A stretch of DNA of 34,197 nt from Candidatus Saccharimonadota bacterium (lineage in GTDB: Bacteria; Patescibacteriota; Saccharimonadia; Saccharimonadales; UBA4665), in the NCBI GenBank assembly GCA_014378615.1, contig JACMNI010000032.1:1-34197 (forward strand), read 5' to 3'. A model generated the notes under the pieces. It was not told where the DNA came from and made no database searches. It was given only the letters and a program-made list of their open reading frames with translations. A program made the translations under genes and the position numbers. This document shows, piece after piece, positions 5,685-34,179 of the stretch. Numbering within the stretch: position 1 is the first letter of the stretch; every line of letters begins with the position of its first letter.

Positions 5685-5690
5685 TACAAT
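5685..5690 (+). promoter_or_regulatory. Extended -10-like element (TGtTACAAT) 8 nt before ychF ATG
   Basis: TGTTACAAT-aagtatct-ATG. Confidence 0.55.
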
Positions 5691-5698
5691 AAGTATCT

Positions 5699-6784
5699 AT
5701 GAGCAATATTTCATGTGGCATTGTTGGCCTACCAAATGTGGGCAAATCAACCCTTTTTAATGCCCTGACGGGTAGTAATATTTTGGCGGCTAATTATCCG
5801 TTCGCTACTATTGACCCCAATACCGGTATCGTCCCTGTTCCAGATCATCGGCTTGGCAAATTAGAGGCGCTGTATAGCGCTAAAAAAGTGGTGCCCGCGA
5901 CGGTTACTTTCGTGGACATTGCCGGCCTGGTAGCCGGGGCTAGTCAGGGCGAGGGCTTGGGAAACCAATTCCTCGGACACATTCGTAGCACCAACGCCAT
6001 TGTTCAGGTGGTGCGGGCCTTTAGTGACGACAATGTTATTCATGTCGACACCGAGCATGATCCCAAGAAAGATATTGACGTTATTAATACCGAACTGGTT
6101 ATTGCCGATCTGCAGACCGTTCAGAAGCGCCTGCCCCGAATAGAAAAGGAAGCCCGGGCCAACCCTAAACTTAAGCCGTTAGCCGATGTGTACCAGCAAG
6201 TACACAATTTACTTGATGCCGGCACGCCGGTATGGGCTGACCCCTCAATTGACCGCGAACTTATAGCCGACCTACAACTGCTTACAGCTAAGCCAGTTAT
6301 TTATTTATTCAACCTCGATGAAGCCGGTCTGGGTGACGCTGCCAAGCAGCAGGAACTGCGCGATCTTGTAGCGCCGTCGACGGCCCTGTTTGTCTGCGCT
6401 AAATTAGAAAGCGAATTAAAAGATTTAGACGTCGGCGACGCTAAAGAACTGCTAGAGAGTTACGGCCAAAGCGAATCGGGCTTGCTACAACTTATTCACG
6501 CTACCTACACTACCCTTGGTCTGCAAAGCTACTTAACGGCTGGCGAACAGGAAGTCCGGGCCTGGACTATTGCCGCGGGAGCCACTGCCCCGCAAGCGGC
6601 TGGCGTTATTCACGGTGACTTTGAGCGCGGCTTTATTGCGGCAGAAGTGGTTGCAGCCACCGATTTACTGAGTGCCGGATCTCTCGCCGCCGCTAAAGCT
6701 GCTGGCAAGGTGCGTACCGAAGGTAAAACCTACGTTATGCAGCCCGACGACGTTGTTGAGTTCCGTTTTAACGTATCTAAATAG
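5699..6784 (+). CDS. ychF: Redox-regulated ATPase/GTPase YchF
   Basis: GIVGLPNVGKSTLFNALT P-loop, DIAGLVAGASQGEGLGNQFL, C-terminal TGS-like FERGFIAAEV...YVMQPDDVVEFRFNV. Confidence 0.95.
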   Translation: MSNISCGIVGLPNVGKSTLFNALTGSNILAANYPFATIDPNTGIVPVPDHRLGKLEALYSAKKVVPATVTFVDIAGLVAGASQGEGLGNQFLGHIRSTNAIVQVVRAFSDDNVIHVDTEHDPKKDIDVINTELVIADLQTVQKRLPRIEKEARANPKLKPLADVYQQVHNLLDAGTPVWADPSIDRELIADLQLLTAKPVIYLFNLDEAGLGDAAKQQELRDLVAPSTALFVCAKLESELKDLDVGDAKELLESYGQSESGLLQLIHATYTTLGLQSYLTAGEQEVRAWTIAAGATAPQAAGVIHGDFERGFIAAEVVAATDLLSAGSLAAAKAAGKVRTEGKTYVMQPDDVVEFRFNVSK

Positions 6785-6787
6785 GGT

Positions 6788-7882
6788 TTAGGCGCCGGCT
6801 ATTTGGGTGGTATTCGGCACGATGGTGGCAGCGGTTTTTAGAGTTGCCTGTTTAGGTAGGCCGTTGAATTTCCTGGTTCGTAGTAAAGCGGGTAGCTTGG
6901 CGTAAGCAATCCGCAACGGGTGGACTTCCATGTTTAGTAAGTTACGTGGTGTTTGCAAAGGCTTAATGGCAGCCCGCGCTTTCACACCCGCCCCAAAGAT
7001 TTCGCGGCGACCGGCTTCTACTAGGCTGGCAATGTCGTCTAAGGGCTTGTGAGCCACGGCTGGGCCTGGGGTGGTGGTAGGTTGCGGTGTCATAGTCGCG
7101 GCGGCCGGGGCCGGTGGCAACGGCACCATCTGCAAGGCTAACGAGGTGACGGTTGGCGCGACAGACGGTGCTGACGAAGCTATAGGTGCGGGTACAGCCG
7201 GTGTGGGCACTAATGGATCCATTGTATTCGCCGCCGCACTAGTGGGCTGCGATGCCTGGTATTGTTGCATGAGACTTTGGGCGTATAAAAAATCGGCCAG
7301 TTCAGGAGTGGGCTTTACGGGGGTTATCGCTTCGATAGCTGTAGGCTGGTTACCTTTACCAACTTTGGCTTCTTCTAGCTTACGCTGTAAATCTTCTTGT
7401 TGTTGGTGTTGGGCTAAGAGATAGGTTTGCAGTTGCTGATTAATACGTTCAAGGTGCTGCTGCTGGTTCTCGGCTGAGTTGGATTGCTCACGCTTTAGGT
7501 CGGCCATCTGGTGCTGAATATGATTAATCAGTTTACGTAATCGCTGTTGGTTAAAGCTAGTGAACTTCAAGTTCTTATTACCGGTACTAACATTTATACG
7601 GGCTCCCATTAAGCGGTGGCTGTAGTCTATCTGGTTAATCATATCGAAACGGAGATCTTCGACGGTTAAGAATTTGAGCGGTTTTTTATCAATGAGCAGT
7701 AAGCGGATGTTGGTGGCGCACAGCAGTGCAAAGCCACCTTCGTAGGTACCGTTAACGCATTCAAAAATCTTTTCGTCATCCATTAGGATGTTAGGGAGTT
7801 CGCTAATCTCGGCTTTACCCCACGAATGCGTGTTAAAGCGGATGTTTTTGAGCTGTTTCTCTACGGACTTCAAGCTGACCAT
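6788..7882 (-). CDS. PH-like (YokE-type bacterial PH) domain protein with Gln-rich coiled coil and Pro/Ala-rich region
   Basis: GTYEGGFALLCATNIRLLLIDKKPLKFLTVEDLRFDMINQIDYS resembles bacterial PH domains. Start moved to 7882 (GGGAGG upstream); a TACAAT -10-like box overlaps the ATG at 7912. Confidence 0.65.
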   Translation of the reverse strand: MVSLKSVEKQLKNIRFNTHSWGKAEISELPNILMDDEKIFECVNGTYEGGFALLCATNIRLLLIDKKPLKFLTVEDLRFDMINQIDYSHRLMGARINVSTGNKNLKFTSFNQQRLRKLINHIQHQMADLKREQSNSAENQQQHLERINQQLQTYLLAQHQQQEDLQRKLEEAKVGKGNQPTAIEAITPVKPTPELADFLYAQSLMQQYQASQPTSAAANTMDPLVPTPAVPAPIASSAPSVAPTVTSLALQMVPLPPAPAAATMTPQPTTTPGPAVAHKPLDDIASLVEAGRREIFGAGVKARAAIKPLQTPRNLLNMEVHPLRIAYAKLPALLRTRKFNGLPKQATLKTAATIVPNTTQIAGA

Positions 7883-7955
7883 GTGCGAGCACCTCCCGTT
7901 ATGTGAAGGCATTGTACCCTGTTTTGGGCGAGCACACCGTGAATTTGCTCACTAA

Positions 7956-7981
7956 ACATTTGTCAGTTTGATCACAAATGT
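7956..7981. promoter_or_regulatory. CRP-box-like inverted repeat in the divergent intergenic region upstream of the crp/fnr gene
   Basis: acatttgt-N10-acaaatgt, perfect 8-bp arms; core TGTCA-GTTTGA-TCACA differs from TGTGA-N6-TCACA at one position. Confidence 0.6.
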
Positions 7982-8027
7982 CATTTTTACAGATACGGAT
8001 AGCTGTAATAACAGATAATACCCAGAT

Positions 8028-8717
8028 ATGGACATTTCATCAAAACACACTCATACTGAATATATGTTGGCTACCCTCAAGCAAATGGCTGAGCTGGTGG
8101 AGGTCTTCCGATCTCGAGGAGTAAAACAGACGTACCGAAAAGGTGACTTTATTATCCGACCAGGCGAAGCCCCGTCTGGAGTGCACTACGTTTATTCGGG
8201 CTTAGTTAAAGCCTACGACATCACGAAGTACAACGAAGAAAACTTACTTATTATCCGAAAAGAAGACGAGGTCTTCCCCCTTATTTGGGCCCTGACTGGT
8301 CAAGAGCGGCAGGTGATTTATCAAGCCTTGGCGCCAACTGTTACGCTTTGCCTAAGCCGTGAAAACTTTCTGAAATACATTAATGAAAGTCCGCAGGCCA
8401 TGGCGCCACTCGTCGATATGACTATAGAAATGTATCGTCTCCACAGCGAACGAATCCTCAATTTAGAGTACCGCTCTGTGCGTGAGCGCATTATTTCATT
8501 TTTACTAACCATGAGCCAACGATTTGGCAAACAGACTCCAGACGGATTACTTATAGAAGCGCCCTTACGCCACCAGGATATCGCTAGCTCTGTTAACGCT
8601 ACCCGCGAGACCACCAGCCGCGAACTGTCGGCCCTTGAGCGTAAAGGCCTACTTACCAATAAGCAATCACTTATTCTCCTTAAAGACGTCGACGCCCTGC
8701 GGCACTACCTCAGTTAA
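8028..8717 (+). CDS. Crp/Fnr family transcriptional regulator
   Basis: cNMP-binding-like beta-roll region and C-terminal HTH RHQDIASSVNATRETTSRELSALERKGLL. Confidence 0.92.
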   Translation: MDISSKHTHTEYMLATLKQMAELVEVFRSRGVKQTYRKGDFIIRPGEAPSGVHYVYSGLVKAYDITKYNEENLLIIRKEDEVFPLIWALTGQERQVIYQALAPTVTLCLSRENFLKYINESPQAMAPLVDMTIEMYRLHSERILNLEYRSVRERIISFLLTMSQRFGKQTPDGLLIEAPLRHQDIASSVNATRETTSRELSALERKGLLTNKQSLILLKDVDALRHYLS

Positions 8718-8718
8718 C

Positions 8719-9375
8719 TTATTGCCACTGTAGTACTATTTTTTCTATCGTTTCCATTATGGTCTGATGGTCAGGCATTTCGTTGTCGTCATAATAATGA
8801 TTGGTGTCCATGTATTCTTCCACAACGCTGAGACAATTTATTTCGTCGGCCGTTATATGCATGCGGTCAATTGCTCGAACGCTGGCTAGCGGTGTTGCCA
8901 CGATTAGCTTTTCTATCCGAATAGGCTTTAGAAATTGCAGGGCCATTTCCAGACCGAAGCTGTCTTTGAACCCGTCGGAAGCTAAGATAATATTATGGCC
9001 CCGCAGTAATTCGCGGTTAATATGGCCGCCACTGCCCAAAAGGCCATTCATTTTGTGAAAGGTGCTAAGTTTTTCTTGTTCGATCGTGCTGTGGAACTCG
9101 CTGGTTAGCTCGTCGAGTTCCCCGTCCGACATGCTTTTATTGTAGCTAAACGTCCCGTCTTCCAGCATGGCACCGATGGCGACGGGCTCGCGCGGCAGTT
9201 TGATCTCTTCGATCATGAGCATCGTTAGCACGCAGTGCAGCTGGGAAGCAATTTGCGCGCCAATGAGCACGCCGCCGTCACCTATGCCTATGACGGCGCA
9301 GTTTTCGTAACGATACTTAGGAACAAGTTGTGCAGCCAGCATGCGACCGGCTTGCACCCGAGAGGCAAAATACAT
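8719..9375 (-). CDS. Phosphoribosyltransferase-fold protein, degenerate PRPP loop
   Basis: YENCAVIGIGDGGVLIGAQIASQL and EEIKLPREPVAIGAMLEDG match the PRTase-like family; loop position reads IILASDGFKDSFGLEMAL. Confidence 0.65.
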   Translation of the reverse strand: MYFASRVQAGRMLAAQLVPKYRYENCAVIGIGDGGVLIGAQIASQLHCVLTMLMIEEIKLPREPVAIGAMLEDGTFSYNKSMSDGELDELTSEFHSTIEQEKLSTFHKMNGLLGSGGHINRELLRGHNIILASDGFKDSFGLEMALQFLKPIRIEKLIVATPLASVRAIDRMHITADEINCLSVVEEYMDTNHYYDDNEMPDHQTIMETIEKIVLQWQ

Positions 9376-9381
9376 ACCAGT

Positions 9382-9387
9382 AGTGTA
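9382..9387 (-). promoter_or_regulatory. -10-like TACACT 6 nt before start of PRTase-like gene
   Basis: TACACT-actggt-ATG on minus strand. Confidence 0.5.
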
Positions 9388-9416
9388 GCGGAATTGCTAG
9401 TGCTTTGCACTGTTAC

Positions 9417-10136
9417 TTACAATTTGCGGAGTAGATAAAAACGTTCGCGGTTGCCTTTAGCCCCCGCCACTTCGGAATCGGCTTTATCTATAATACTAAA
9501 GCTGTGCAGCGCCCAATCTTCAAAATCTTTAAGAATCTGACGGCGGATTTTGTCGTTTTTAATAACGCCTTTGTGCTTCAGATTACTCGCTCCTGCTTCG
9601 AATTGGGGCTTAACCATAAGCGCCAACTGAGTCGCTGGCGTGATCTGCTGCAGAATGCTGGGGAGTAATTCGCGCAGGCTTATAAATGACACATCGGCAA
9701 CGACAATATCAATGTTCTCAGTGGTCTTGAAGTTTCGGATATCGGTTTTTTCATGAAGCTCTATGCGCGGGTCACCCTGCAGGCTTGGATGAAGCTGATT
9801 AGAGCCGACCTCGACCGCAAAGACTTTACGGGCACCGTGCTGGAGGGCGTAATCCGTAAAACCACCAGTACTGCTACCGACGTCTAAAACTGTTTTGTCA
9901 CGAAAATCGAGTTTAAGGACTTGGGCAATTGACGCCAGCTTAAGACCGGCGCGGCTAACATATTGCTCGGTGGCTGTGAGTTTGAGAACGGCTACTTCCC
10001 CGACCATGGTTCCGGCTTTAGTCTCCACGCGGCCATTTACGGTCACTTTGCCGAGCTTAACATAACTCTCTGCTTGGCTACGAGTGGTAACAAGTCCGCG
10101 TTGGACCAAGGCTTGGTCGAGGCGTGATTTGGGCAT
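9417..10136 (-). CDS. tlyA: TlyA family rRNA (cytidine-2'-O)-methyltransferase
   Basis: S4 domain RLDQALVQRGLVTTRSQAESYVKLGKVTVNG; VLDVGSSTGGFTDYALQHGA SAM motif. Confidence 0.93.
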   Translation of the reverse strand: MPKSRLDQALVQRGLVTTRSQAESYVKLGKVTVNGRVETKAGTMVGEVAVLKLTATEQYVSRAGLKLASIAQVLKLDFRDKTVLDVGSSTGGFTDYALQHGARKVFAVEVGSNQLHPSLQGDPRIELHEKTDIRNFKTTENIDIVVADVSFISLRELLPSILQQITPATQLALMVKPQFEAGASNLKHKGVIKNDKIRRQILKDFEDWALHSFSIIDKADSEVAGAKGNRERFYLLRKL

Positions 10137-10703
10137 TTATTCCTTCACGCGTTCGCGGTAAGCGCCGGTGGCGGTATCGACGGACAAGATGTCGCCTTGC
10201 TTTATGAAAGCTGGGACCTTGATGGTGATTCCGGTTTCCAGCGTGGCCTCTTTAGTAATAGAGCTGCTAGTGTCACCCTTGACGGCGTCTTCAGTATAGG
10301 TAACTCGCAATGGAACATTTTTTGGTAGTTCAACGTTGATGGCGATGTTGTTAAAGAATTGAAGACTAACTTTGTCGCCCTCTTTTAAGTAACCTGCCCC
10401 GTCACCAAGCAAATCGGCGGCGATTTCGAATTGTTCGAAGCTGTCTTCGTTCATAAAGTAGAACTTAGATCCATCGGTGTAGAGGTATTGGACGTTTTGG
10501 TTAGAAACATCAGCGCGGTCGAGTTGTTCGTTGCCCTTGAAAGTCTTCTCCAGTACTTTGCCATCGAGTAAACTCTTTATGCGTACATTAACAATCGAAC
10601 CACCGCGGCCCATAACTTTCTGGTTGTAATCGACAACGCGAAAAGGCTCGCCTTCCCACTGGAAAAGCGTGCCTTTTTTTAGCTCAGTAATACTTAAAGC
10701 CAT
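10137..10703 (-). CDS. efp: Elongation factor P
   Basis: KKGTLFQWEGEPFRVVDYNQKVMGRGGSIVNVRIKSLLDGKVLEKTF; C-terminal GITIKVPAFIKQGDILSVDTATGAYRERV. Confidence 0.95.
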   Translation of the reverse strand: MALSITELKKGTLFQWEGEPFRVVDYNQKVMGRGGSIVNVRIKSLLDGKVLEKTFKGNEQLDRADVSNQNVQYLYTDGSKFYFMNEDSFEQFEIAADLLGDGAGYLKEGDKVSLQFFNNIAINVELPKNVPLRVTYTEDAVKGDTSSSITKEATLETGITIKVPAFIKQGDILSVDTATGAYRERVKE

Positions 10704-10711
10704 GCAGCCTC

Positions 10712-10915
10712 CTAGTTACTAGCTACGAATGGTAGTAGAGCGATGTGGCGTGCACGCTTGATAGCGGTGCTGAGGCGGCGCTGTTGGCTTTCAGTCAGTC
10801 CAGTTTTCTTGCGAGACTCGATCTGTCCGTACATGTTTACGTAGCGTTGTAGGGTCTTGAAATCTTTGTAGTCAAAAAAGGCTACGTCAGTTCGGTGTTT
10901 AAAAATCTTGGCCAT
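10712..10915 (-). CDS. rpsR: 30S ribosomal protein S18
   Basis: FFDYKDFKTLQRYVNMYGQIESRKKTGLTESQQRRLSTAIKRARHIALLPF. Confidence 0.96.
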   Translation of the reverse strand: MAKIFKHRTDVAFFDYKDFKTLQRYVNMYGQIESRKKTGLTESQQRRLSTAIKRARHIALLPFVASN

Positions 10916-10959
10916 ATTTATCCTTTAGGTTAAGTGTGGGCCGCCTACGCGGCCCGTCA

Positions 10960-11445
10960 TTAGAATGGAATGTCGTCGAGGTTGATGGGTTCGTCGCCGA
11001 TGTCTTCGATGACGACGTCATCTTTTTTCTGAGATGGAGCTGGCTTACTGCTACCGGCGTTGGAATTACCGCCACCGTGGCTGTTGCCGCCTTCGCTACC
11101 TTCGTTGCCTTCGCCGCGAGCGTCTAAGAATGTGACGTCGCTAGCGAGGACTTCTACTTTGTTGCGCTTAACGCCGTCTTGTTCCCAAGAGCGACTTTGC
11201 AGCCGACCCTGTACAAGGCAGCGGCGGCCCTTACTTAAGTACTGGGCGACGCGCTCAGCCAGTGGACCCCACGACGTAATGTCGATGTAGTCGGTGGCTT
11301 CTTGCCAGGCGCCGCTCTGGTCTTTGTAACTGCGGTTTAGGGCCAGACTAAAACTGGTGACGTTTTGGCCGGTTGGCGTTTGACGCAGTTCGGGGTCACG
11401 GGTTAGGTTTCCCATTAGAGTTACTTGATTTAAGCTTCGTGCCAT
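10960..11445 (-). CDS. ssb: Single-stranded DNA-binding protein
   Basis: MARSLNQVTLMGNLTRDPELRQTPTGQNVTSFSLALNR OB fold; acidic tail ending LDDIPF. Confidence 0.96.
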   Translation of the reverse strand: MARSLNQVTLMGNLTRDPELRQTPTGQNVTSFSLALNRSYKDQSGAWQEATDYIDITSWGPLAERVAQYLSKGRRCLVQGRLQSRSWEQDGVKRNKVEVLASDVTFLDARGEGNEGSEGGNSHGGGNSNAGSSKPAPSQKKDDVVIEDIGDEPINLDDIPF

Positions 11446-11561
11446 TACTGACTCCTTTTCTTATAAGACATATGTCTTGCTTAGTTGATGTATTCCTACC
11501 CTACTCTTCCGCCACTCAAGTCGTCAAGAAACGGGTAAAATATTTAAGCGTTAGTTAAGAA

Positions 11562-11966
11562 TTACTCTTCTGAATCTTCTTTGTCGCCGTCGTCACCACG
11601 GTCACCGCGCTTAGCGGCTTGATTGGCCTTAACCTGCTTGGCAGCTTCGGCTTTGGCGATAGCGGCTAGATCTGGCTTAGTGATGAGGAAACGGATAACC
11701 TCGTCGGTAATGTTGAGGGTGCTTTCCACCTTCATAACACCTTCGCCGGGCATTTCTACGGTGTAAAAAACGTACACAGCGTAGTCGTTACCTTTAATGC
11801 TGTAGTTAAGCTTGCGCTTACCCCAGTTATCAGTAGCGGTTATTTTGCCACCGTTATCGGTAACAATCTTTGTAACGCGGTCCTCAGCCTTGCTCAGGTC
11901 GACTTCCAGGTCTGGGTGATATAACACCGCAATTTCGTATTGATTTGTCAAAAAAGACCCCTTCAT
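11562..11966 (-). CDS. rpsF: 30S ribosomal protein S6 (start uncertain: ATG 11966 or TTG 11951)
   Basis: YEIAVLYHPDLEVDLSKAEDRVTKIV...NWGKRKLNYSIKGNDYAVYVFYTVE; canonical rpsF-ssb-rpsR order. Confidence 0.93.
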   Translation of the reverse strand: MKGSFLTNQYEIAVLYHPDLEVDLSKAEDRVTKIVTDNGGKITATDNWGKRKLNYSIKGNDYAVYVFYTVEMPGEGVMKVESTLNITDEVIRFLITKPDLAAIAKAEAAKQVKANQAAKRGDRGDDGDKEDSEE

Positions 11967-12061
11967 ACGGTTACCATACCACTAGTGTATGGACAGCCCA
12001 TGTGCACGAGTGGCCATGAGCTGAAGTTGATAGTGACCTAATTATATCCTATTTCAATCTG

Positions 12062-12970
12062 TTAAGCAACACGCGCCAGACGCACTTCACGGGTGCGATT
12101 GAGGTAGCCCTTGGTCAATACCTGACCGACCTGGCCGGCTGCAATTTGGACTTTAATATCGGGACGAAAGGGCCAGTAATCTTCGGGGATATTCTGTAAG
12201 GCGTCCAAGTGCATCAGAATGCCGCCTAATTCACGTAGCAGGGCTTCTCGTACCATTTCCTGCTGTTCCTCGTTATAACCACCCCGACGAAGTTCTTCTC
12301 TAGCAAATAGCCTTTGGTGACTAACAGTCTGGCGGGCTGCCATGAAGAAATCACCAACTACTTCCCACGCCCTGAGTGTATAGCGCATGACTTCGGGGTC
12401 TGGCATTGGCGGCGTTTCTGATACCGCGTGGATCCAGTTATGAAAAACTCGCTGTACTCGTATTACATTGCTGCCGTGTTCACGAAAAATGTAGGCCGGT
12501 ACACCCGATGATTTTTGGGCTTCCACATAGTTTGCCCGTGGCCAGCATAAATGGTGTCTATCAGGCTTTCCAAGCCAGTGGAAGGATGGGTCTATAGTCT
12601 CTAAAACCTGGGCTATAAATGCTTTGTCGTCTATCAAACCCTTACCGTTAAGAACGGGTATAATCTTATGCTTTCTAGGGTCGATTAGCCGAAACTGAGC
12701 CGCCGGTAGGCCATCTAGATGCGCCCGCACTACTTCTTCTGCCGAGCCGCGAGGTGCTTCCAGTGTCGTATCGATTAGTTCTTGTGAAGTTATTTCAGCA
12801 GGAGATAAAGCGCCTATTGCAATAAATTCCGGTTCATCTGATTCAAGCAGACTGGCTGCTATAGAGCGAATCAAAAAGCCCCTGTCGTGTTCGACAGGGG
12901 CTGGTGTAAGCGCAGCGAGTTCAGCGTTCGTTCCTGGTGGAGTTAGACGCTGAATACTCACTACGCTCAT
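12062..12970 (-). CDS. Uncharacterised protein (302 aa), possible divergent HNH-like motif
   Basis: Long ORF with AAGGAG upstream; HHLCWPRANY...HGSNVIRVQRVFHNWIH resembles an HNH-like arrangement. GTG at 12961 gives better SD spacing than ATG 12970. Confidence 0.55.
   Translation of the reverse strand: MSVVSIQRLTPPGTNAELAALTPAPVEHDRGFLIRSIAASLLESDEPEFIAIGALSPAEITSQELIDTTLEAPRGSAEEVVRAHLDGLPAAQFRLIDPRKHKIIPVLNGKGLIDDKAFIAQVLETIDPSFHWLGKPDRHHLCWPRANYVEAQKSSGVPAYIFREHGSNVIRVQRVFHNWIHAVSETPPMPDPEVMRYTLRAWEVVGDFFMAARQTVSHQRLFAREELRRGGYNEEQQEMVREALLRELGGILMHLDALQNIPEDYWPFRPDIKVQIAAGQVGQVLTKGYLNRTREVRLARVA
12873..12902 (-). terminator. Intrinsic-terminator-like hairpin located within coding sequence
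   Basis: Minus-strand AGCCCCTGTCG-AACA-CGACAGGGGCT followed directly by TTTTT; perfect 11-bp stem. Confidence 0.5.
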
Positions 12971-13036
12971 CTCCTTTAGCAGTTTTTGTTCTTATGCTTA
13001 TAGTAGTCCTCGCCACTGCTTTTTGGCAAGCACGAT

Positions 13037-15286: not shown

Positions 15287-15323
15287 CGATTTTGTTTATT
15301 ATACCCTGTTAACTGCTTATGGT

Positions 15324-15578: not shown

Positions 15579-15584
15579 TGGTAT

Positions 15585-15590
15585 ACTATA
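15585..15590 (-). promoter_or_regulatory. -10-like TATAGT 6 nt before 84-aa ORF
   Basis: TATAGT-atacca-ATG on minus strand. Confidence 0.45.
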
Positions 15591-15666
15591 GCAATTTTTA
15601 CATCTATTGTCAACGAGCTAATGCTTTTTATGTATAGATAGCTAGGACTGTTTCGACCGAGCGTGA

Positions 15667-21416: not shown

Positions 21417-23558
21417 TTATTCAGTTCCCTGCGCTTCAGGCAAGGCAGCGCGCATGGAGAGCTGGAGGCGGCCACGCTCGTCGATGCCGAGTAATTTAAC
21501 GCTTACTAGGTCGCCTTCTTTGACGACGTCGCTCGGGTGGCCGACGCGTTCATTGCTCATTTCTGAAACGTGCACCAGGCCGTCTTTGCCCGGCATGATT
21601 TCTACGAAAGCACCAAAGTCCATGACGGTCTTAACGGGGCGATCGGTGTAGATCTTACCGACTTCCGGGTCTTCGGTAATGCCGAGTATCCAGGCTTTGG
21701 CGGCGGCAATGCTCTCGCCGTCGGGGCTGGCGATCATGACGGTACCGTCGTCTTTGATGTCAATTTGGGTGTTAGTTTCGGCGGTGATGCGCTGGATAGT
21801 CTCACCGCCCTTACCGATGATTTCGCGAATCTTATCAGGGTTAATCTGGATAGATTCAACGCGTGGTGCATATGGGCTCATGGCCTTTGGCGTGTTAATG
21901 GTGGCTTCCATGTGCTCAAGAATGTGGAATCGCCCCTCTTTGCCCTGTACTAGAGCTTTTTTGAGCGTTTCAACTGGCAGCCCGTGCACCTTCATGTCCA
22001 TCTGCAGCGCCGTTATACCTTTACGGGTTCCGGTAACCTTAAAGTCCATGTCGCCGGCGAAGTCTTCGGCATCGGCGATGTCGCTGAGTACGATGGCTTT
22101 GTCGCCTTCGACCATAAGGCCCATGGCAATACCACTAACAAGCGCCTTCAGTGGCACACCAGCATCGAGTAACGCGAGGACGCTCGAACAGGTAGCGGCC
22201 ATACTTGTCGAACCGTTTTGGCTCATAATTTCAGTTACGGAACGGATGGCGTACGGGAATTCGGCTTCTGATGGCAAAACGGCAGTAACGGCACGCTCGG
22301 CGAGGTAGCCGTGGCCGATTTCGCGGCGGCCCGGTGAACCAAGGCGGCGGACTTCACCGACGGTGTAGCCAGGAGCGTTGTAGTGGTGGAAGTAGCGGCG
22401 TTCGCCTTCTTTTTCCATGGTATCTACTACTTGGTTGAAGCTGAGTGGTGCCAAGGTAACAATGTTGAGGGCTTGGGTCATACCGCGAGTAAACAGGCTG
22501 GAGCCGTGAGCACGTGGCAGTAAGCCAACTTCGCTGCTGAGGGTACGGATTTCGGTAAAGCCACGGCCATCGGGACGGACATTGTGGTTCAAAATGCCAT
22601 CACGTACATCTTTATGCACGGCTGTCTGAAAGGCTTCGGCGTAGGTATTGGCGTTGGCGGCGTAGTCTTCGTGCTTCTCGGCCATGGCGAGTTGCAGCTC
22701 ATCTTTAAGGTTGCTGACCAAAACGTTACGCTCGGGGTACGGCTTGCGAAGGTCTTCGCCGAGGCGACCCTCTATCCAGTCGTTAACTTCAGTTTGGATG
22801 GTGGCGTCTGGAAGGTCGAGGGTGTATTCCTGCTTGGAAACGCCAACTTTGGCGGCCAGTTCCTGCTGCAGGGCAATGGCGGGTTGCATAGCTTCGAAGG
22901 CGTAAGCGATGGCTTCAGCCACCTGCTCTTCGGTCACTTCTGAGGCTCCGGCCTCTACCATCATGACGCCGTCTTTGGTACCAGCTACTACTAGGTCGAG
23001 GTCGCCGTCATCAAGCTGAGCTGGCGTGGCAAAGGCAGTGTACTTACCATCAACTAGGCCAACCCGGAGGCCGGCAACGGGGCCGTTAAACGGCGCACCG
23101 GTCAGCATAAACGCGGCGCTGAGGGCAATCATGGCAATCATGTCGGGGCGGAAGCTTGGATCCATACTGAGGACGCTGGCGACACCCTGGGCTTCGTGGC
23201 GGTAACCTTTGGGCCACAGCGGGCGTATTGGTCGGTCAATTAAACGGCCAATTAAGATTGCGTCGTCACTCGGGCGACCTTCCCTTTTAATAAATCGGCT
23301 ACCAGAAATTTTACCAGCGGCATACATTTTTTCTTCATAATCGATGCTCAGCGGAAAGTAGTCGAAGCCGCTCAGGCTCTTGTTACTGACCATGGCAGTA
23401 CCGAGAACGACTGTGTCGCCGTAGCGGGCCAAAACTGAAGCCGAAGTACGGAAGCCAACACGGCCGACTTCTAAGCTAAGGGTTTTGCCACATAGCTCGG
23501 TAGTAACGGTAATAATGTCTTTACCGAGGGGGTTAATAGTTTGTCCATTATTAGGCAT
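21417..23558 (-). CDS. pnp: Polyribonucleotide nucleotidyltransferase (PNPase)
   Basis: RNase PH repeats, KH (IIGKGGETIQRITAETNTQIDI) and S1 (DFGAFVEIMPGKDGLVHVSEMS) domains. ATG 23558 has AGAAGG RBS; preferred over 23603. Confidence 0.96.
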   Translation of the reverse strand: MPNNGQTINPLGKDIITVTTELCGKTLSLEVGRVGFRTSASVLARYGDTVVLGTAMVSNKSLSGFDYFPLSIDYEEKMYAAGKISGSRFIKREGRPSDDAILIGRLIDRPIRPLWPKGYRHEAQGVASVLSMDPSFRPDMIAMIALSAAFMLTGAPFNGPVAGLRVGLVDGKYTAFATPAQLDDGDLDLVVAGTKDGVMMVEAGASEVTEEQVAEAIAYAFEAMQPAIALQQELAAKVGVSKQEYTLDLPDATIQTEVNDWIEGRLGEDLRKPYPERNVLVSNLKDELQLAMAEKHEDYAANANTYAEAFQTAVHKDVRDGILNHNVRPDGRGFTEIRTLSSEVGLLPRAHGSSLFTRGMTQALNIVTLAPLSFNQVVDTMEKEGERRYFHHYNAPGYTVGEVRRLGSPGRREIGHGYLAERAVTAVLPSEAEFPYAIRSVTEIMSQNGSTSMAATCSSVLALLDAGVPLKALVSGIAMGLMVEGDKAIVLSDIADAEDFAGDMDFKVTGTRKGITALQMDMKVHGLPVETLKKALVQGKEGRFHILEHMEATINTPKAMSPYAPRVESIQINPDKIREIIGKGGETIQRITAETNTQIDIKDDGTVMIASPDGESIAAAKAWILGITEDPEVGKIYTDRPVKTVMDFGAFVEIMPGKDGLVHVSEMSNERVGHPSDVVKEGDLVSVKLLGIDERGRLQLSMRAALPEAQGTE

Positions 23559-23707: not shown

Positions 23708-23721
23708 TAGCTATGCATTAA

Positions 23722-24680: not shown

Positions 24681-24686
24681 TATATA

Positions 24687-25391: not shown

Positions 25392-25399
25392 TAGGCCTT

Positions 25400-25405
25400 A
25401 GTGTA
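25400..25405 (-). promoter_or_regulatory. -10-like TACACT 8 nt before truB
   Basis: TACACT-aaggccta-ATG on minus strand. Confidence 0.5.
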
Positions 25406-25430
25406 CTCGAAGACGGCTTGAGGCAACAAC

Positions 25431-27179: not shown

Positions 27180-27373
27180 ATTATTTTGTATAGTACTTTT
27201 GTTTTTGAGTTTTGATTATTAGAATTTCTACTGTCAGCGTAGCACAAGCAGCTTGTGGTTGTCGAGCAAAATGCTAATGTATTCTTTACAAAGGGGCGAC
27301 TCCTGTATATAGTCAATTATTGAAAGATAATTAAACTTACGCGTTCAACGACGTAACAAAAAGGAACCCCGCA

Positions 27374-27772
27374 ATGCCAATCATCAAGTCCGCAAAAAAG
27401 CGCGTTAAAACCGCTAACAAAGCCGCCGTCCGCAATAGCAAGACTAAGCGCACTCTAAAGACAGCCCTTAAAAGCTTCCACGCCGCTGTTACAGGCAAGT
27501 CCAAGGACGCCGGTGACAAACACGCGAAGGCCCAAAGCGCCATCGACAAGACTGTTAAAAAAGGCCTAGTACACAAGAACAAAGCTGCTCGTTTGAAGAA
27601 GCAAGCTAGCGCAAAAGCCAAGGCCGCCGGCGTTAAGCCAGTTGCCCGCACCAAGAAAGCTGCACCAGTTAAAAAAGCAGCCGCTCCAAAGAAGACCGTT
27701 GCCAAGAAGCCTGCGGCCAAGCCAGTAACCAAAAAAGCCCCTGCTAAAAAGCCCGTTGCTAAGAAAAAATAG
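27374..27772 (+). CDS. rpsT: 30S ribosomal protein S20 with Lys/Ala/Pro-rich C-terminal extension
   Basis: MPIIKSAKKRVKTANKAAVRNSKTKRTLKTALK core; HKNKAARLKKQ; RBS AAGGAA. Confidence 0.93.
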   Translation: MPIIKSAKKRVKTANKAAVRNSKTKRTLKTALKSFHAAVTGKSKDAGDKHAKAQSAIDKTVKKGLVHKNKAARLKKQASAKAKAAGVKPVARTKKAAPVKKAAAPKKTVAKKPAAKPVTKKAPAKKPVAKKK

Positions 27773-27792
27773 TTTTTTCTGTCAGCCTTTTG

Positions 27793-27816
27793 AACCGCCC
27801 TTCGGGGCGGTTTTTT
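27793..27816 (+). terminator. Rho-independent terminator downstream of rpsT
   Basis: aaccgccc-ttcg-gggcggtt perfect 8-bp stem with UUCG tetraloop followed by T-run. Confidence 0.92.
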
Positions 27817-28744
27817 AGTGTTTTGTAAGCGCTACCTGCAAAAAGTAGTTTTGTAAGGCTTCATCTACGTCCAGATTGCTGCGCTTACTTTTTAGGTCAA
27901 TATCGAGTAGGTCATTAATGAGTTGCTTGAGTTCGGCCATACTTAGTTGCTTAGCAATAGCGGTGCTCTTCTGCACTACGTATGGGCTTAACTTAGCGGC
28001 GGCGGCGATGTCTGCGGCCGATCGATTACCGGCGGCTTTTATAACGGCGAGTATATGAAGCTGCCAAGCCAGCATGGCTATAATCTGCGACGCCTCGACT
28101 TTAAGCGCCCGCTGTTCCTGATACAGCTTGAGGGCGCGTTCGGCCTGCCCCGCAAAGGCCGCTTCTAATAACTGAAATATGGTGCTTTGCGGCGTTGGAT
28201 CGGTGAGTAAATCTATGGTTTCGCGCGTTATTACATTGTCACGCAGCAGTAATTTTTCGAGTTCATTGGATAACATTTGTTGGTTGAGCCCGACCCGATC
28301 AATTAAATAGCGCGCGTCATTACTACGCAGCGTGCCGCCTTTGTCTTTGGCGGCTCGCACTAACCATGCGGCTAGACCGTTTACATCTAGCTCAGCGTAC
28401 TCTGTAAAGGTAGTGTTTTTCTTAAGAAATTTATAATAAGCCGAGCGTTTGTCGAGCTTGGGCTCAACAATAATAACGTCTGTCGTGTCGGAGACTTCCT
28501 GCAATAAAATTTCGGCCTGTTCTATGAACTGTTTGTTGCTGCTGGGCGCGCGCAGGACTACTAATTTTTTGTTCGCCAGAAATGGCAGGCTCGTAATTGC
28601 CTCCCGCAAGCGCGATAGTTCAATCGTTTCGCCGTCAATTCGCTCTAGGGCTAGATCGCCGTGCTCGGCCACAAACCGATTGACCTGCGCGGTCAAATCG
28701 TAACCGAGTAAAAAGCTATTGGGGCCGGTAAGCGTCGTAATCAT
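27815..28744 (-). CDS. holA: DNA polymerase III subunit delta
   Basis: MITTLTGPNSFLLGYDLTAQVNRFVAEHGDLALERIDGE; LRAPSSNKQF; Lacks-ATPase clamp-loader-like domain architecture; LLDIDLKSKRSNLDVDEALQNYFLQV. Confidence 0.88.
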   Translation of the reverse strand: MITTLTGPNSFLLGYDLTAQVNRFVAEHGDLALERIDGETIELSRLREAITSLPFLANKKLVVLRAPSSNKQFIEQAEILLQEVSDTTDVIIVEPKLDKRSAYYKFLKKNTTFTEYAELDVNGLAAWLVRAAKDKGGTLRSNDARYLIDRVGLNQQMLSNELEKLLLRDNVITRETIDLLTDPTPQSTIFQLLEAAFAGQAERALKLYQEQRALKVEASQIIAMLAWQLHILAVIKAAGNRSAADIAAAAKLSPYVVQKSTAIAKQLSMAELKQLINDLLDIDLKSKRSNLDVDEALQNYFLQVALTKH

Positions 28745-28844
28745 GTCTCCTTATTCTAGCAATTTGTCGCGTATTTATAGCCAGACTGTAAAATTTATCG
28801 TTTTAATATTGTTACTGTCGTGGTAAAACTAACAGAACAGACTT

Positions 28845-31031
28845 ATGCCGCAAATTCTTATTGTTTCTAATCGACTGCCCGTGACCGTCAAAAAAGTAGA
28901 CGGCAAACTCAGCTTTGAAATGAGTATGGGTGGCGTTGCCACTGGCCTCGCGTCGTATGTAAATAGTCGTAAAAATAAGTGGATCGGCTGGCCCGGGATT
29001 GCTTCCGAAGAGCTAACCGACACCGATAAGCAGAAAATTACTGCTGAACTGGCCAAGCGTAACTGTGTGCCGGTCTTCTTAACCAAGAAACAAGTGACAG
29101 ACTTTTATAATGGCTACAGTAACAGCCTGCTCTGGCCGTTGTTCCATAACTTGCCAATGGATAGCGCCGACGAGCGGTGGTGGAAAGCCTACAAGGCCGT
29201 TAACAAAGCTTTCCATCAAGCAGTTCTGAATACGACAGTCGGTAAAAGTAGCGTTTGGATTCAGGATTATCAGCTTATGCTGCTGCCCGAAATGGTGAAA
29301 CTCGAGCGACCAGAACTCCACGTTGGGTTCTTTTTACATATTCCCTTCCCAGACGCCAAGACATTCGCCAAATTACCAGAAGCCGAGCGCTTGCTACGCG
29401 GGATGCTCGGCGCCGATTTAATTGGCTTTCACACTAAAAATTATGTCTCTAATTTCGCCAAAACGGTCCAATCGTTCGACCTTGGATTAATAGCCGACGA
29501 CCAGCTGATTCTACCCGATCGGACTGTCCGGGTTACTAATTTTCCTATGGGCATCGACTATGAAAAGTTTACGGCGGCCCGTAAGATCCCGGCAGTGAAA
29601 GCCGAAGTCAAACGCCTTAAAAAGCAGTACAAAGGGCAAAAAATTATCGCCGGCGTCGATCGACTCGATATCACAAAAGGTTTTGTCGAACGTTTAATTG
29701 CCTTCCGCGATTTTTTGCGCCAGTATCCCCGAGAGCACGGTAAAATTGTTTTCGTGTTAGTCGGTGCGCCGTCACGTGGTGAAATTGCCGCCTACCAGAA
29801 ACTAAGCCGTAAAGTCGAAGCATTGGTGCACGACATCAACAACGAATTCAGGACCCCCAAATGGCAGCCGGTCGACTACAATAATCAAGGCTTGAATTTC
29901 GAAGCTATGACCGCCCTGTTTCAAATTGCCGACATTGCTTTTATTGCACCCCTTCGCGATGGCATGAATTTAGTAGCCAAAGAATATATTGCCAGCAAAA
30001 AGAAGAACGGCGTCTTGATTCTCAGCGAAACTGCCGGAGCCGCCCAAGAATTAGAAGATGCTCTAATAGTAAATCATAAAAAGCCGGCTACTTTAGTAGC
30101 AGCAATCGATCAAGCCCTGCATATGCGCCGCCGCGAAGTACGCAGCCGTTTTAAGCGTATGAAACGGCATTTGGCGAGTCATACAGTCCACACCTGGGCG
30201 GGTGATTTTATGGCTACCTTACAAAAGCCCGTACCGGGGACGCCGCAACTGATTTCGCGGACGCTAACGCCAAAGTCGCAGACCATGATCCACGCCCGCT
30301 ACCTGCAAGCCGATAAGCGCTTATTACTGCTCGATTACGATGGCACGTTAGTGCCCTTTAGCGGCGATTATTCAACCAGCCGAGCGCCAAAAACCCTCGT
30401 TAATTTACTCAACAAATTAACTTCCGACCCAGCCAATACCGTAGTCGTCGTTAGTGGCCGCTCGGCCGATGACCTCGATGCCCGTTTTAGTGGGCTGTCG
30501 CTCAATCTTGTAGCCGAACACGGTGCCATGACTAAACCTGCCGGACAGGCGCACTGGAAGACTCTGGCGCGCGCCGAGAGCAAATGGAAAAAGCAGATTC
30601 TACCCATTTTGCGTAAATACGCTTCACTGACGCCGCTCGCTCGCGTAGAAGAAAAACCACATTCGCTGGTGTGGCACTACCGTCAGTCACCGCCCTATTA
30701 CGCCCAGAAGAACGTCGTGATATTAAAGCGGGTTCTGAAACCGATTTTAAAAACATTTAACTTGGCGACATTTCAGGGCAATAAGATTTTAGAAATTAAA
30801 GACCCATCTATCAATAAAGGTGCGGCCGTTAAGCGTTGGCTCAATAAAGACTATAGCTTTGTTTTAGCCATTGGCGATGATTACACCGATGAGGACATGT
30901 TTACCACCCTGCCTGCTACCAGTTACACCATCAAGGCGCGGAGTGGACGCACGGCCGCCCGTTACCGCCTGCAAAACGACAAAGCCGTCGTAGAGTTCCT
31001 GCGCGTGCTAACTAATAAATCAATTAACTAG
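28845..31031 (+). CDS. Bifunctional trehalose-6-phosphate synthase / trehalose-6-phosphate phosphatase fusion
   Basis: GT20 motifs (VSNRLPVTV, GGVATGLASYV, IWIQDYQLMLLP-like VWIQDYQLMLLP, GVDRLDITKGF, APLRDGMNLVAKEYIAS) followed by HAD phosphatase motifs (LLLDYDGTLVPF, VVVSGRSADDL, AIGDDYTDEDMF). Confidence 0.95.
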   Translation: MPQILIVSNRLPVTVKKVDGKLSFEMSMGGVATGLASYVNSRKNKWIGWPGIASEELTDTDKQKITAELAKRNCVPVFLTKKQVTDFYNGYSNSLLWPLFHNLPMDSADERWWKAYKAVNKAFHQAVLNTTVGKSSVWIQDYQLMLLPEMVKLERPELHVGFFLHIPFPDAKTFAKLPEAERLLRGMLGADLIGFHTKNYVSNFAKTVQSFDLGLIADDQLILPDRTVRVTNFPMGIDYEKFTAARKIPAVKAEVKRLKKQYKGQKIIAGVDRLDITKGFVERLIAFRDFLRQYPREHGKIVFVLVGAPSRGEIAAYQKLSRKVEALVHDINNEFRTPKWQPVDYNNQGLNFEAMTALFQIADIAFIAPLRDGMNLVAKEYIASKKKNGVLILSETAGAAQELEDALIVNHKKPATLVAAIDQALHMRRREVRSRFKRMKRHLASHTVHTWAGDFMATLQKPVPGTPQLISRTLTPKSQTMIHARYLQADKRLLLLDYDGTLVPFSGDYSTSRAPKTLVNLLNKLTSDPANTVVVVSGRSADDLDARFSGLSLNLVAEHGAMTKPAGQAHWKTLARAESKWKKQILPILRKYASLTPLARVEEKPHSLVWHYRQSPPYYAQKNVVILKRVLKPILKTFNLATFQGNKILEIKDPSINKGAAVKRWLNKDYSFVLAIGDDYTDEDMFTTLPATSYTIKARSGRTAARYRLQNDKAVVEFLRVLTNKSIN

Positions 31032-31895
31032 CTTCTGACATTTTGGGCAGGTGTGGGTGCCCCGCCCGGCAACGCGAGTTTTTACTATGAGAGTATTACA
31101 GCGCGGACACGGTCGGCCCTCTCTCCGAAATACGGCAGCAAAGTTAAGGTATCGGCCCCGACTCCCCTCGGCGTCTACGTAATTTCTGTCACTACTACCG
31201 CCTTCGGCAATCGACTGCGTCAAAACGGCCTGCATGGCCGTGTACAGCGGCTTATACTTAGCGGCTGGCACGTTTTTAACAAGCGTTGTCGGGTGTAGCT
31301 TGGCGCCCCAAAGGCTCTCATCGGCATAGATATTACCAATACCGGCAACGACTGTCTGGTCTAAAAGCGCCGCTTTGATGTTGGTGTTCTTGCGCCGCTG
31401 CAAACGCGCTTGTAAGTTTTGCCAGCTAAAATCGGCGCTCAGAGGCTCGGGTCCGACCTTTTTAAAAAAATCTAAGTTTACAATTTCGGGCGTTGGCAGT
31501 AAGCGCATCCAGCCAAACTTTCGCTGATCGTTAAAATAAAGTCGACTGCCATCGCTAAACGTCAGTGTGACGCGAGTTGATTTATCTGGTAGTTGGCCAA
31601 TTAAAGAAGCGTTTGGGTGTCCGGCGCCGAAGCGCTCTTTGTCGCCCACAAATACTAACTGTCCGGTCATTTTTAGATGAATTACCAACGAATAGTTAGT
31701 AGACAGCCCAATTAGCAGCACTTTTGCTCGACGGTGCACTGCAACGACCGAGCTTCCAGCCAAAAATGACGCAACATCGGCTTCGGCATTCGGAAAGCTT
31801 TTGGGCGTGTCAAACTGAGCGCTGGCGATAGTTTTACCAACTATTAAGCGTTCTAAGCCGCGTTTTACGGTTTCAACCTCTGGTAGTTCTGGCAT
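31020..31895 (-). CDS. mutM: Formamidopyrimidine-DNA glycosylase
   Basis: MPELPEVETVKRGL N-terminus; C-terminal zinc finger CPRCNTLIVKTRVAGRGTHTCPKCQ. Confidence 0.96.
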   Translation of the reverse strand: MPELPEVETVKRGLERLIVGKTIASAQFDTPKSFPNAEADVASFLAGSSVVAVHRRAKVLLIGLSTNYSLVIHLKMTGQLVFVGDKERFGAGHPNASLIGQLPDKSTRVTLTFSDGSRLYFNDQRKFGWMRLLPTPEIVNLDFFKKVGPEPLSADFSWQNLQARLQRRKNTNIKAALLDQTVVAGIGNIYADESLWGAKLHPTTLVKNVPAAKYKPLYTAMQAVLTQSIAEGGSSDRNYVDAEGSRGRYLNFAAVFRREGRPCPRCNTLIVKTRVAGRGTHTCPKCQKLVN

Positions 31896-31901
31896 ACGGT
31901 A

Positions 31902-31907
31902 AGTATG
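31902..31907 (-). promoter_or_regulatory. -10-like CATACT (with upstream TGt) 6 nt before mutM
   Basis: TGtCATACT-taccgt-ATG on minus strand. Confidence 0.55.
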
Positions 31908-31935
31908 ACAGATGAATAAAAAGGCTGTCTAGCGA

Positions 31936-31941
31936 TATACT
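31936..31941 (+). promoter_or_regulatory. -10-like TATACT 6 nt before 78-aa ORF
   Basis: TATACT-aggggt-ATG. Confidence 0.6.
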
Positions 31942-31947
31942 AGGGGT

Positions 31948-32184
31948 ATGGACTCCCTATTTAGTATTCTTGGACAGAAAAATTTTGACGAGCCTCCCGA
32001 AGCGGTGAGTATTAAAAAATTTGTTTGGGACGAATATAAAACTGCCGTGACGGTTTTGGTACGGGACAAAGATATCAGCGTCCAGGTGCCTGGTGCGGCG
32101 CTAGCTAATACCCTTCGCCTCCGGGCGCCCGAACTAAAACGCCGCTGCCAGATCGACAAAAAAATAAATTTCAGAATTACGTAA
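31948..32184 (+). CDS. Small uncharacterised protein (78 aa)
   Basis: ORF MDSLFSILGQKNFDEPPEAVSIKKFVWDEY...; TATACT exactly 6 nt upstream of ATG supports expression. Confidence 0.65.
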   Translation: MDSLFSILGQKNFDEPPEAVSIKKFVWDEYKTAVTVLVRDKDISVQVPGAALANTLRLRAPELKRRCQIDKKINFRIT

Positions 32185-32734
32185 GCAGCATATTTATCGC
32201 TGCTTTGGCTTGATTAAATGATATGTAGTGTACGGTCTGCATCCCCGCCGCTCGCGCGCCATCGCAATTTGCTTCAAGATCGTCGACCATAAGGCAGTCT
32301 TGCGGTGCTACACCGAGCTCGTCCGCCATACGCTTAAATACCTGTGGATCTGGTTTTACGAGCCCAACAGTGTGGGAATACATCATGGCGTCAAACAACT
32401 GCTGTTCTGCTGGCGACAAAAACTTTTCGGTTATCCAATTGGTGGCAATATTGCTGAGTAGGCCAATTTTATACGTGGGTTTTAACTCGCCAATATAGTC
32501 GAGCATGACTATATTTTTAATTGCCGTCCCACTCCCCGACTCAACAAGATTGGGCCGGGTGCCGCAGACGGCTTCCACCTCTGTTATGTACTCGAGTTCT
32601 GTTAAATGACCAGTGTCATAGGCTTTGTTCAGATCGGCGAGCGCCGGTCGGACAGACGCTGGCATAGTCGATACAAATTCGTGCCAATAACCGGTCGTTA
32701 AAACACCAAAACAGTCAAAGATAATTGCTTGCAT
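32177..32734 (-). CDS. HAD superfamily hydrolase
   Basis: IIFDCFGVLT, GLLSNIATNW, VGLVKPDPQVFKRM, CLMVDDLEANCDGARAAGM motifs. Confidence 0.9.
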   Translation of the reverse strand: MQAIIFDCFGVLTTGYWHEFVSTMPASVRPALADLNKAYDTGHLTELEYITEVEAVCGTRPNLVESGSGTAIKNIVMLDYIGELKPTYKIGLLSNIATNWITEKFLSPAEQQLFDAMMYSHTVGLVKPDPQVFKRMADELGVAPQDCLMVDDLEANCDGARAAGMQTVHYISFNQAKAAINMLLT

Positions 32735-32742
32735 ACCGCCTT

Positions 32743-32748
32743 AGTATA
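32743..32748 (-). promoter_or_regulatory. -10-like TATACT 8 nt before HAD hydrolase
   Basis: TATACT-aaggcggt-ATG on minus strand. Confidence 0.55.
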
Positions 32749-32768
32749 CCTAACGCGGATTTGCGGGA

Positions 32769-33344
32769 CTACAGGTTAAAGCTGAGCCCGTTTGGAGTAC
32801 GGACTTTTTCGATATTGGGGACTTGCTTCTTGAAGAGCGTAACGTTAAGGCTGGTTTTGCCTTGAAAACTTTTGACTCCCGAGCAGCTGGTAGACCAAAA
32901 TCGTTCGAGTTGTTTGCCGCTATCTTCTAGTTCAAAAATGTAGCGCGTGCCGAGTGGACAGTAGCCGCGGTCGTTCTTGAGGGCAGCCGAGGTGTCACCC
33001 TTCGTAAAGCCGGCAATTTCAAGTGATCGCAAGAAGGAGGTGTAGCTGGTTTGCGTATTAGGGTAGGTTTCAAGTTTAGTAACCTGACCATCGTAGCCCT
33101 GTAGTTCTTCATACGTCGTACTGTCCTTGCCCACCGTTATGCGGGTAGCGCGGTGATTTTCTGGAGCAGTAATAGGCCCATCTATAGTTAAACGGACGGT
33201 AGCCGCGGTGCTGGCGTACGATTCAAGCGTTTTAGAAGTGCTGGGGACTTTAGTCTTAGTGCTGTCACCACCGCCTGCAACAAGCAAGACTATCAATAAA
33301 ATGATGAGCCCGACCGTTATAAAAAATCCAAGTATATACTTCAT
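32769..33344 (-). CDS. Uncharacterised single-TM extracytoplasmic protein
   Basis: MKYILGFFITVGLIILLIVLLVAGGG N-terminus; AGGAG-N5-ATG RBS at 33344, so the 33377 start is likely an over-extension. Confidence 0.7.
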   Translation of the reverse strand: MKYILGFFITVGLIILLIVLLVAGGGDSTKTKVPSTSKTLESYASTAATVRLTIDGPITAPENHRATRITVGKDSTTYEELQGYDGQVTKLETYPNTQTSYTSFLRSLEIAGFTKGDTSAALKNDRGYCPLGTRYIFELEDSGKQLERFWSTSCSGVKSFQGKTSLNVTLFKKQVPNIEKVRTPNGLSFNL

Positions 33345-33441
33345 AAAAACTCCTGATGGATATTTATATACTAACACTATTATCTTATTTTTGCAATAGC
33401 CATTATGGTTATTGTGTCGTGCCTATACGTCGAGAAAGCCG

Positions 33442-33447
33442 TATACT
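33442..33447 (+). promoter_or_regulatory. -10-like TATACT 6 nt before membrane protein gene
   Basis: TATACT-aaagac-ATG. Confidence 0.6.
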
Positions 33448-33453
33448 AAAGAC

Positions 33454-33903
33454 ATGCTTTTACACTACCGGACTGGGCTGGCTACGCTAATACAATTCAT
33501 TACTCTTTCATTACTAGGAATAGCTAACGGATTAGATTCGGTTATTACTACCTGCGGCAATAACCGGAATAACTGTGTCAGCAATTTATTAGTCTCGACA
33601 GTGTTCTTTTTACTGACGGTTGGCTGGTTTGCCGGTATTTGGCTTGTAGGCTACGCAGCCCAAGATCGGCGTAGCCGCAAGCTGGCCCTCATCTTAATTG
33701 CGATGGAGCTAGTGGTGCTGCTGGTAGCCACTTTCAACGCCCGGCACCATACCAATCTTATAAGCTTCATAACTAGTGTAACCGATGCCCTGCTGGCCGT
33801 ATGGGTCATACTAGTAGCTTGGCGACTGCGTCGGGCCAAAGGTGGTCGTATCGTTACTAGCGAACGGGCACGGCAGCGCCGCAATCCTCCGACAGCGCTC
33901 TAA
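33454..33903 (+). CDS. Uncharacterised multi-TM membrane protein
   Basis: Several hydrophobic helices; TATACT 6 nt upstream of ATG 33454. Confidence 0.65.
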   Translation: MLLHYRTGLATLIQFITLSLLGIANGLDSVITTCGNNRNNCVSNLLVSTVFFLLTVGWFAGIWLVGYAAQDRRSRKLALILIAMELVVLLVATFNARHHTNLISFITSVTDALLAVWVILVAWRLRRAKGGRIVTSERARQRRNPPTAL

Positions 33904-34167
33904 TTACTTGCAGACGTCGGATTTAGACCCAAGTAACGAACTGACGCTGGTGTTATTGCACAGATCGTCTTTAACATTTAGCGTTTTGACTGTTTGCTGT
34001 TGAAAATTCTCTAACTTTTTAACGGAGTTATTGGCCGAAACGACTACTTTATATAAGGCAAACGAGCCGAGCATAAAGGCAATGATAATTATCGTGCCGA
34101 AGAGCGTGACCCAAAACGTTAAAAATTTCAACTGTCGCAATATTTGTTTAAGTACTACTTCGTCCAT
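33904..34167 (-). CDS. Small single-TM protein (87 aa)
   Basis: TM helix FWVTLFGTIIIIAFMLGSFALY; TATACT 6 nt upstream of ATG. Confidence 0.65.
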   Translation of the reverse strand: MDEVVLKQILRQLKFLTFWVTLFGTIIIIAFMLGSFALYKVVVSANNSVKKLENFQQQTVKTLNVKDDLCNNTSVSSLLGSKSDVCK

Positions 34168-34173
34168 ACAGGC

Positions 34174-34179
34174 AGTATA
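34174..34179 (-). promoter_or_regulatory. -10-like TATACT 6 nt before 87-aa membrane protein gene
   Basis: TATACT-gcctgt-ATG on minus strand. Confidence 0.6.

Follow-up and report, generated by a model that had tools for sequence, protein, structure and literature searches.

Candidatus Saccharimonadota bacterium GCA_014378615.1 belongs to the order Saccharimonadales of the Patescibacteriota, and its 787-kb genome is 74% complete. The window, as we call the whole stretch of DNA analysed here, is one contig of that genome (JACMNI010000032.1, 34,197 nucleotides), and its genes include ychF, a gene for a CRP-family regulator, efp, ssb, rpsF, ftsK, the genes for RNase J and PNPase, rpsO, truB and mutM. 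Several window genes are preceded by a hexamer resembling a -10 promoter box that stands a few nucleotides (nt) ahead of the ATG, and others by a Shine-Dalgarno (SD) sequence. The original prediction for this DNA read the arrangement as a two-class architecture, in which boxed genes yield leaderless mRNAs and the remainder are SD-led. Here, we describe a computational analysis of the close-spaced -10 box in the window, in its source genome and across the Patescibacteria.

The boxes listed in that prediction are all present, six at 6 nt and three at 8 nt from the ATG, where the spacing, or gap, is the number of nt between hexamer and ATG. Those at 6 nt comprise CATACT (31902..31907, minus strand) before ATG 31895 of mutM, TACACT (9382..9387, minus) before ATG 9375 of a phosphoribosyltransferase gene, TATAGT (15585..15590, minus) before ATG 15578 of an 84-amino-acid (aa) open reading frame (ORF), and three copies of TATACT: at 31936..31941 (plus) before ATG 31948 of a 78-aa ORF with a codon score of 8.5, at 34174..34179 (minus) before ATG 34167 of an 87-aa ORF with a hydrophobic stretch, and at 33442..33447 (plus) before ATG 33454. 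The last of these -10-like sites is the weakest of the set; a coding signal is lacking in ORF 33454 (log-likelihood -1.4), and the box before it may be a chance site or belong to a poorly adapted gene. ORFs 31948, 33454 and 34167, which make up three of the nine close-spaced sites, have no Pfam match. The mutM coding sequence, a leaderless candidate, extends over 31020..31895 (minus) and encodes Fpg (MPELPEVE..., Pfam PF01149, PF06831, PF06827). Between 31895 and 31948 mutM and ORF 31948 diverge, with two -10 boxes face to face inside 52 bp, and the two putative promoters therefore overlap each other.

The boxes at 8 nt are TACAAT (5685..5690, plus) before ATG 5699 of ychF, TACACT (25400..25405, minus) before ATG 25391 of truB and TATACT (32743..32748, minus) before ATG 32734 of a HAD hydrolase gene, with the caveat that AAGG lies between box and ATG in the last two. 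A further -10-like hexamer that had not been listed, GATAAT (8014..8019, plus), stands 8 nt before ATG 8028 of the CRP-family regulator. The somewhat more distant boxes proposed for ftsK (TATAAT, 15298..15303, minus, 11 nt before ATG 15286) and for a gene truncated at the end of the contig and labelled a pilM fragment (TATACT, 81..86, minus, 10 nt before ATG 70) are likewise in place, and the predicted leader of ftsK would be a few nt long. The SD-led class is exemplified by efp (AGGAGG, 10704..10715, minus) and ssb (AAAAGGAG, 11446..11456, minus). The proposed SD sites at 3165, 4001, 10703, 11445, 20550 and 33344 were recovered; at 23558 the DNA offers only GAAGGTTCC.

Gene-level statistics were drawn from 427 genes called by codon usage in 532 kb of the source genome, the start codon being taken as the 5'-most ATG of each called gene. 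A box at gap 6 is in frame with the ATG, and TAA or TAG stops ahead of the 5'-most ATG inflate the count of a plain TANNNT pattern. The plain histogram was discarded for this bias at gap 6, and the pattern TA[TC]A[AC]T (TAYAMT) was preferred, because excluding TAA and TAG removes it. With this pattern, -10 hexamers some 12 bp ahead of the start codon are well above background: boxes occur at gap 6 in 34 of the 427 genes, against 1.33 expected from the local upstream background (Poisson 1.5e-35), and at gaps 6-9 in 78 genes, against 5.3 (Poisson 1.5e-61). The counts at gaps 6, 7, 8 and 9 are 34, 17, 18 and 9, respectively, against 1.3 per position further upstream and about 0.2 per position before internal in-frame ATGs, and the excess above background amounts to 73-92 genes, or about 17-21%. 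In E. coli, 219 genes passed through the identical pipeline gave no box at gaps 5-9 and a normal SD peak. An expectation-maximization fit in which the spacing was not preset recovered the same motif (T.94 A.98 T.57 A.74 A.50 T.95) and placed 43% of its weight at gap 6; its class fractions were not used, as the controls fit spurious classes of 30-40%. Viewed from the box, TAYAMT is followed by an excess of ATG at +6 to +8 (50, 42 and 31, against about 13), and the start codons at +6 are 50 ATG, 9 GTG and 16 TTG, with neither GTG nor TTG enriched. Mycobacterial leaderless genes also use GUG, unlike the present genome, where GTG is not enriched after the box. The genome-wide positional peak on which the original prediction hinged is present, with its maximum at 6 nt and a shoulder over gaps 7-9.

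The surroundings of the box, and the genes that carry it, are those expected of a promoter. A G at -14, the mark of an extended -10 element, is present in about 55% of gap-6 genes, and there is a weak excess of TTGACA-like sequences at 17-bp spacing (11 of 97 genes, against about 4), as expected of promoters. Under strict patterns, 97 of the 427 genes carry a box, 113 an SD, 2 both and 215 neither, so that the SD pattern occurs in 2 of 99 box genes; in the other genes SD-like tetramers and AGGAG-type motifs peak at gaps 5-9. The box class favours genes that stand first or alone in their transcription unit. It accounts for 34 of 114 divergent starts and 28 of 69 co-directional starts with gaps of 21-60 nt, against 6 of 97 tight co-directional starts (20 nt or less; p = 8e-6 for divergent against tight), a context predicted by a promoter that starts transcription at the ATG. 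SD genes show the reverse and dominate in tight pairs (odds ratio 8 for box against SD class, p = 3e-5). The division into two classes, nearly exclusive and split by operon position, is supported. The simpler statement that promoter-proximal genes are leaderless survives as a tendency, boxes being found at about 30% of divergent and about 40% of co-directional 21-60-nt starts, and some promoter-proximal genes are SD-led, among them rpsF, which has its own promoter and a structured leader.

Choice of the start codon is the weakest point of such analyses, and for that reason mutM is the strongest test. The residue that follows the initiator methionine of Fpg is its catalytic proline. Because Pro2 is catalytic, the ATG before CCN is the mutM start, which is thereby confirmed independently of the box motif. 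Among 30 genomes of the order, a -10 box lies 6-9 nt before this Pro2-fixed ATG in 27, at exactly 6 nt in 14; two of the remaining genes have an SD and one has neither. Other 4-nt bins of the mutM upstream DNA hold 0-3 boxes, and the flanks upstream of the box are unrelated, with a mean identity of 0.26; the box has therefore been kept while its surroundings have not. Outside the candidate phyla radiation (CPR), a box at 6-9 nt was seen in 2 of 60 mutM orthologs and an SD in 31 of 60. The window's MutM is closest to proteins (72-63%) of metagenome-assembled genomes (MAGs) of Candidatus Saccharibacteria.

A box at 6-9 nt also precedes ychF in 18 of 27 scored orthologs, at a conserved N-terminus. 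YchF is said to promote translation of leaderless mRNA and to be retained in CPR (PMC12641178); that ychF is itself a gene of the box class makes a link to leaderless translation only suggestive. Most ychF orthologs that do not carry the box show a second arrangement (L248, L253, L254, L258, L260, L261, L263 and L269), with neither a -10 box nor a clear SD, in which conserved DNA of approximately TTGGGTTAG stands ahead of ATGCTAAGC; it is perhaps coupled to an upstream gene.

The spread of the signal was followed by counting TAYAMT-N6-ATG against TAYAMT-N13-ATG within each genome, in phylum statistics covering 174 of 287 genomes. N6 exceeds N13 in 22 of 22 genomes of the order (ratio 2.19) and in 112 of 149 other Patescibacteria (ratio 1.42); taken singly, 73 of the 174 genomes are significant for N6 and 3 for the opposite. 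The ratio in Bacillota is 0.78. Gene-level profiles peak at gap 6 in G253, G109 and G219 of the order and in G276 and G234 elsewhere in the CPR; the profile of G048 (29% GC, few genes) has no clear peak. Some non-CPR MAGs also stand above the N13 control, namely those of Coriobacteriales (L077; 39 against 11), Anaerolineales (L120; 190 against 98) and Terriglobia (L115; 59 against 40), pointing to possible leaderless genes there.

No 16S gene was found in the source MAG, and its translation apparatus was judged in part from relatives. Complete 16S ends of the order terminate in GGATTACCTCCTTT and carry ACCTCCTTT; ACCTCC is intact in every complete 3' end assignable to an organism of the order, and SD pairing is therefore intact. 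IF3 is present, as is a short S1 of about 366 aa. The 16S 3' end of the order (L041-L056) reads GGATTACCTCCTTTCT and differs by one change just before the anti-SD from that of E. coli, which at the corresponding place is GGATCACCTCCTTA. Two G315 sequences stand out: the small-subunit rRNA of L069 finishes in the manner of a eukaryotic 18S rRNA (GTAGGTGAACCTGCGGAAGGATCATT), and the 3' end of L063 is odd as well; this MAG likely contains foreign contigs.

Leaderless mRNAs, or mRNAs with leaders of 1-3 nt, very probably coexist with SD-led ones in this genome, a reading supported by the positional peak, the exclusivity of the classes, operon context and mutM conservation. About one-fifth of genes, most of them with an expected promoter upstream, would carry a housekeeping-sigma -10 box of consensus TA[TC]A[CA]T 6-9 nt before the ATG, often with an extended -10 G two bases upstream and a weak -35 element; these genes appear to be transcribed from the start codon or a few bases off it, with no room for a ribosome-binding site. 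Transcription would begin at the A of the ATG or 1-3 nt earlier, giving mRNA without an SD, on which the ribosome presumably initiates by binding the 5'-terminal AUG. In other bacteria the binding of 70S ribosomes to the 5'-terminal AUG of leaderless mRNA is an established route. Operon-internal genes and some leadered genes would rely on AGGAG sites pairing with the intact anti-SD. The box, its spacing, its exclusivity with the SD, its gene context, its conservation across genomes and the anti-SD of relatives are direct observations; from them we infer that the box is an active promoter, where exactly transcription starts and that translation begins at a 5'-terminal AUG.

Several observations weigh against so simple a picture. 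Half of the genes (215 of 427) fall in neither class under strict patterns, a group in which genes with weak boxes or weak SDs and genes with misassigned starts must be expected, and the 5'-most ATG is the wrong start for some genes, such as rpsF. Pyrimidine at -1 reaches 0.70 in the source genome against a baseline of 0.68-0.69 (0.88-0.94 in three relatives), and since it is barely raised the exact +1 is uncertain; T at -1 was rejected as proof of the transcription start, the baseline being nearly as high. G149, a close relative from the same family (L151-L160), peaks at gaps 7-9 and not 6, which suggests 1-3-nt leaders or another choice of start site; it and G219, whose profile peaks at 6, show little excess by the exact pattern TAYAMTN6ATG. 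In the source genome, too, gaps of 7-9 may correspond to leaders of 1-3 nt instead of none.

Other explanations of the box fare less well. Were it a product of chance or of AT-rich upstream DNA, it would have no promoter function; the upstream DNA is somewhat AT-rich, and the plain TANNNT count is inflated as described above, but the peak is spacing-specific, stands at 1e-35 against the local upstream background and is lacking in E. coli. Together with the N13 control and mutM conservation, these positional controls refute the idea, to which we attach next to no probability. It is also conceivable that the boxes are promoters but that the gene calls are too early, translation starting further downstream at a codon that has a ribosome-binding site of its own. 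This happens within the window, where rpsF ATG 11966 is spurious and orthologs place the real start at TTG 11951, behind AAGGGG. As a general account it is most improbable: mutM cannot start downstream, given its catalytic Pro2 and the box in 27 of 30 orthologs, ATG rather than GTG or TTG is enriched at +6, and ychF shows the box at its conserved N-terminus. Finally, the boxes could be real but secondary, with the main promoters further upstream and the leaderless form a minor product. Tandem promoters are possible at some genes, and the weak -35 elements suggest that some boxes are weak promoters; but the leader of the longer transcripts would be without an SD, both signals occurring in 2 of 99 genes, and at mutM the box is kept and the remaining upstream DNA is not, which makes this an unlikely explanation.

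Leaderless expression of the kind we favour resembles several known systems. A TANNNT signal about 12 bp before the start has been described in Actinobacteria, Deinococcus-Thermus, Aquificae, Chloroflexi and Lactococcus (Zheng et al. 2011, PMC3160421); the genes described here share the signal, the distance to the start codon, the coexisting SD class and, as in some low-GC genomes, the extended -10 TG, and differ in often having C as the fifth base of the -10 (TATACT). In Deinococcus-Thermus, experiments have established that a -10 motif beside ORFs is the promoter from which leaderless mRNAs are made (Zhong et al. 2025, PMC12340547). There, as here, the -10 is tightly spaced to the ORF and the -35 is optional, with about one-third of genes involved, against about one-fifth here; the function of the Deinococcus-Thermus motif was tested by experiment, whereas that of the present box is predicted from sequence. 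The leaderless transcriptomes of Mycobacterium tuberculosis and M. smegmatis likewise contain a large leaderless class beside SD-led genes (PMC3898074, PMC4633059). The text of Zheng et al. (PMC3160421) mentions neither TM7, Saccharibacteria nor candidate divisions, and the main text of Zhong et al. (PMC12340547) neither Patescibacteria nor CPR. A search of the open-licence literature, with subscription journals and most preprints outside it, found no report of leaderless genes in Saccharibacteria or other CPR. The GeneMarkS-2 study (Lomsadze 2018) may have included CPR genomes. This mode of initiation, known elsewhere, is thus apparently unreported for Patescibacteria. Its range would grow by a huge radiation of bacteria, most of them uncultured, in which the reduced ribosome of a symbiont would have to handle two kinds of mRNA and gene finders that model only the SD would misplace starts and miss promoters. 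More speculatively, and we hold this as a doubtful possibility, leaderless expression might be one of the main modes in the Patescibacteria as a whole, perhaps the ancestral one, and be tied to reduced ribosomes, with mutM and ychF held leaderless throughout the order, others keeping structured SD leaders, and the state of the ribosome or YchF able to shift expression between the classes.

One structured SD leader lies in the window itself. A leaderless mini-ORF overlapping rpsF (TACACT 11989, ATG 11977) was considered and rejected, because rpsF, judged by its orthologs, starts at TTG 11951, downstream of a conserved SD leader. An Rfam scan of the window gave no match. The leader (11946-12040, minus) is conserved across the order (L210-L238) and consists, in order, of a promoter, a hairpin (GCTCACGGC...GCGTGGGC), TTAACC and the SD. 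RNAalifold predicts nine pairs, six of them with compensatory changes, and the leader appears to be a Saccharibacteria counterpart of the S6:S18 autoregulatory leader.

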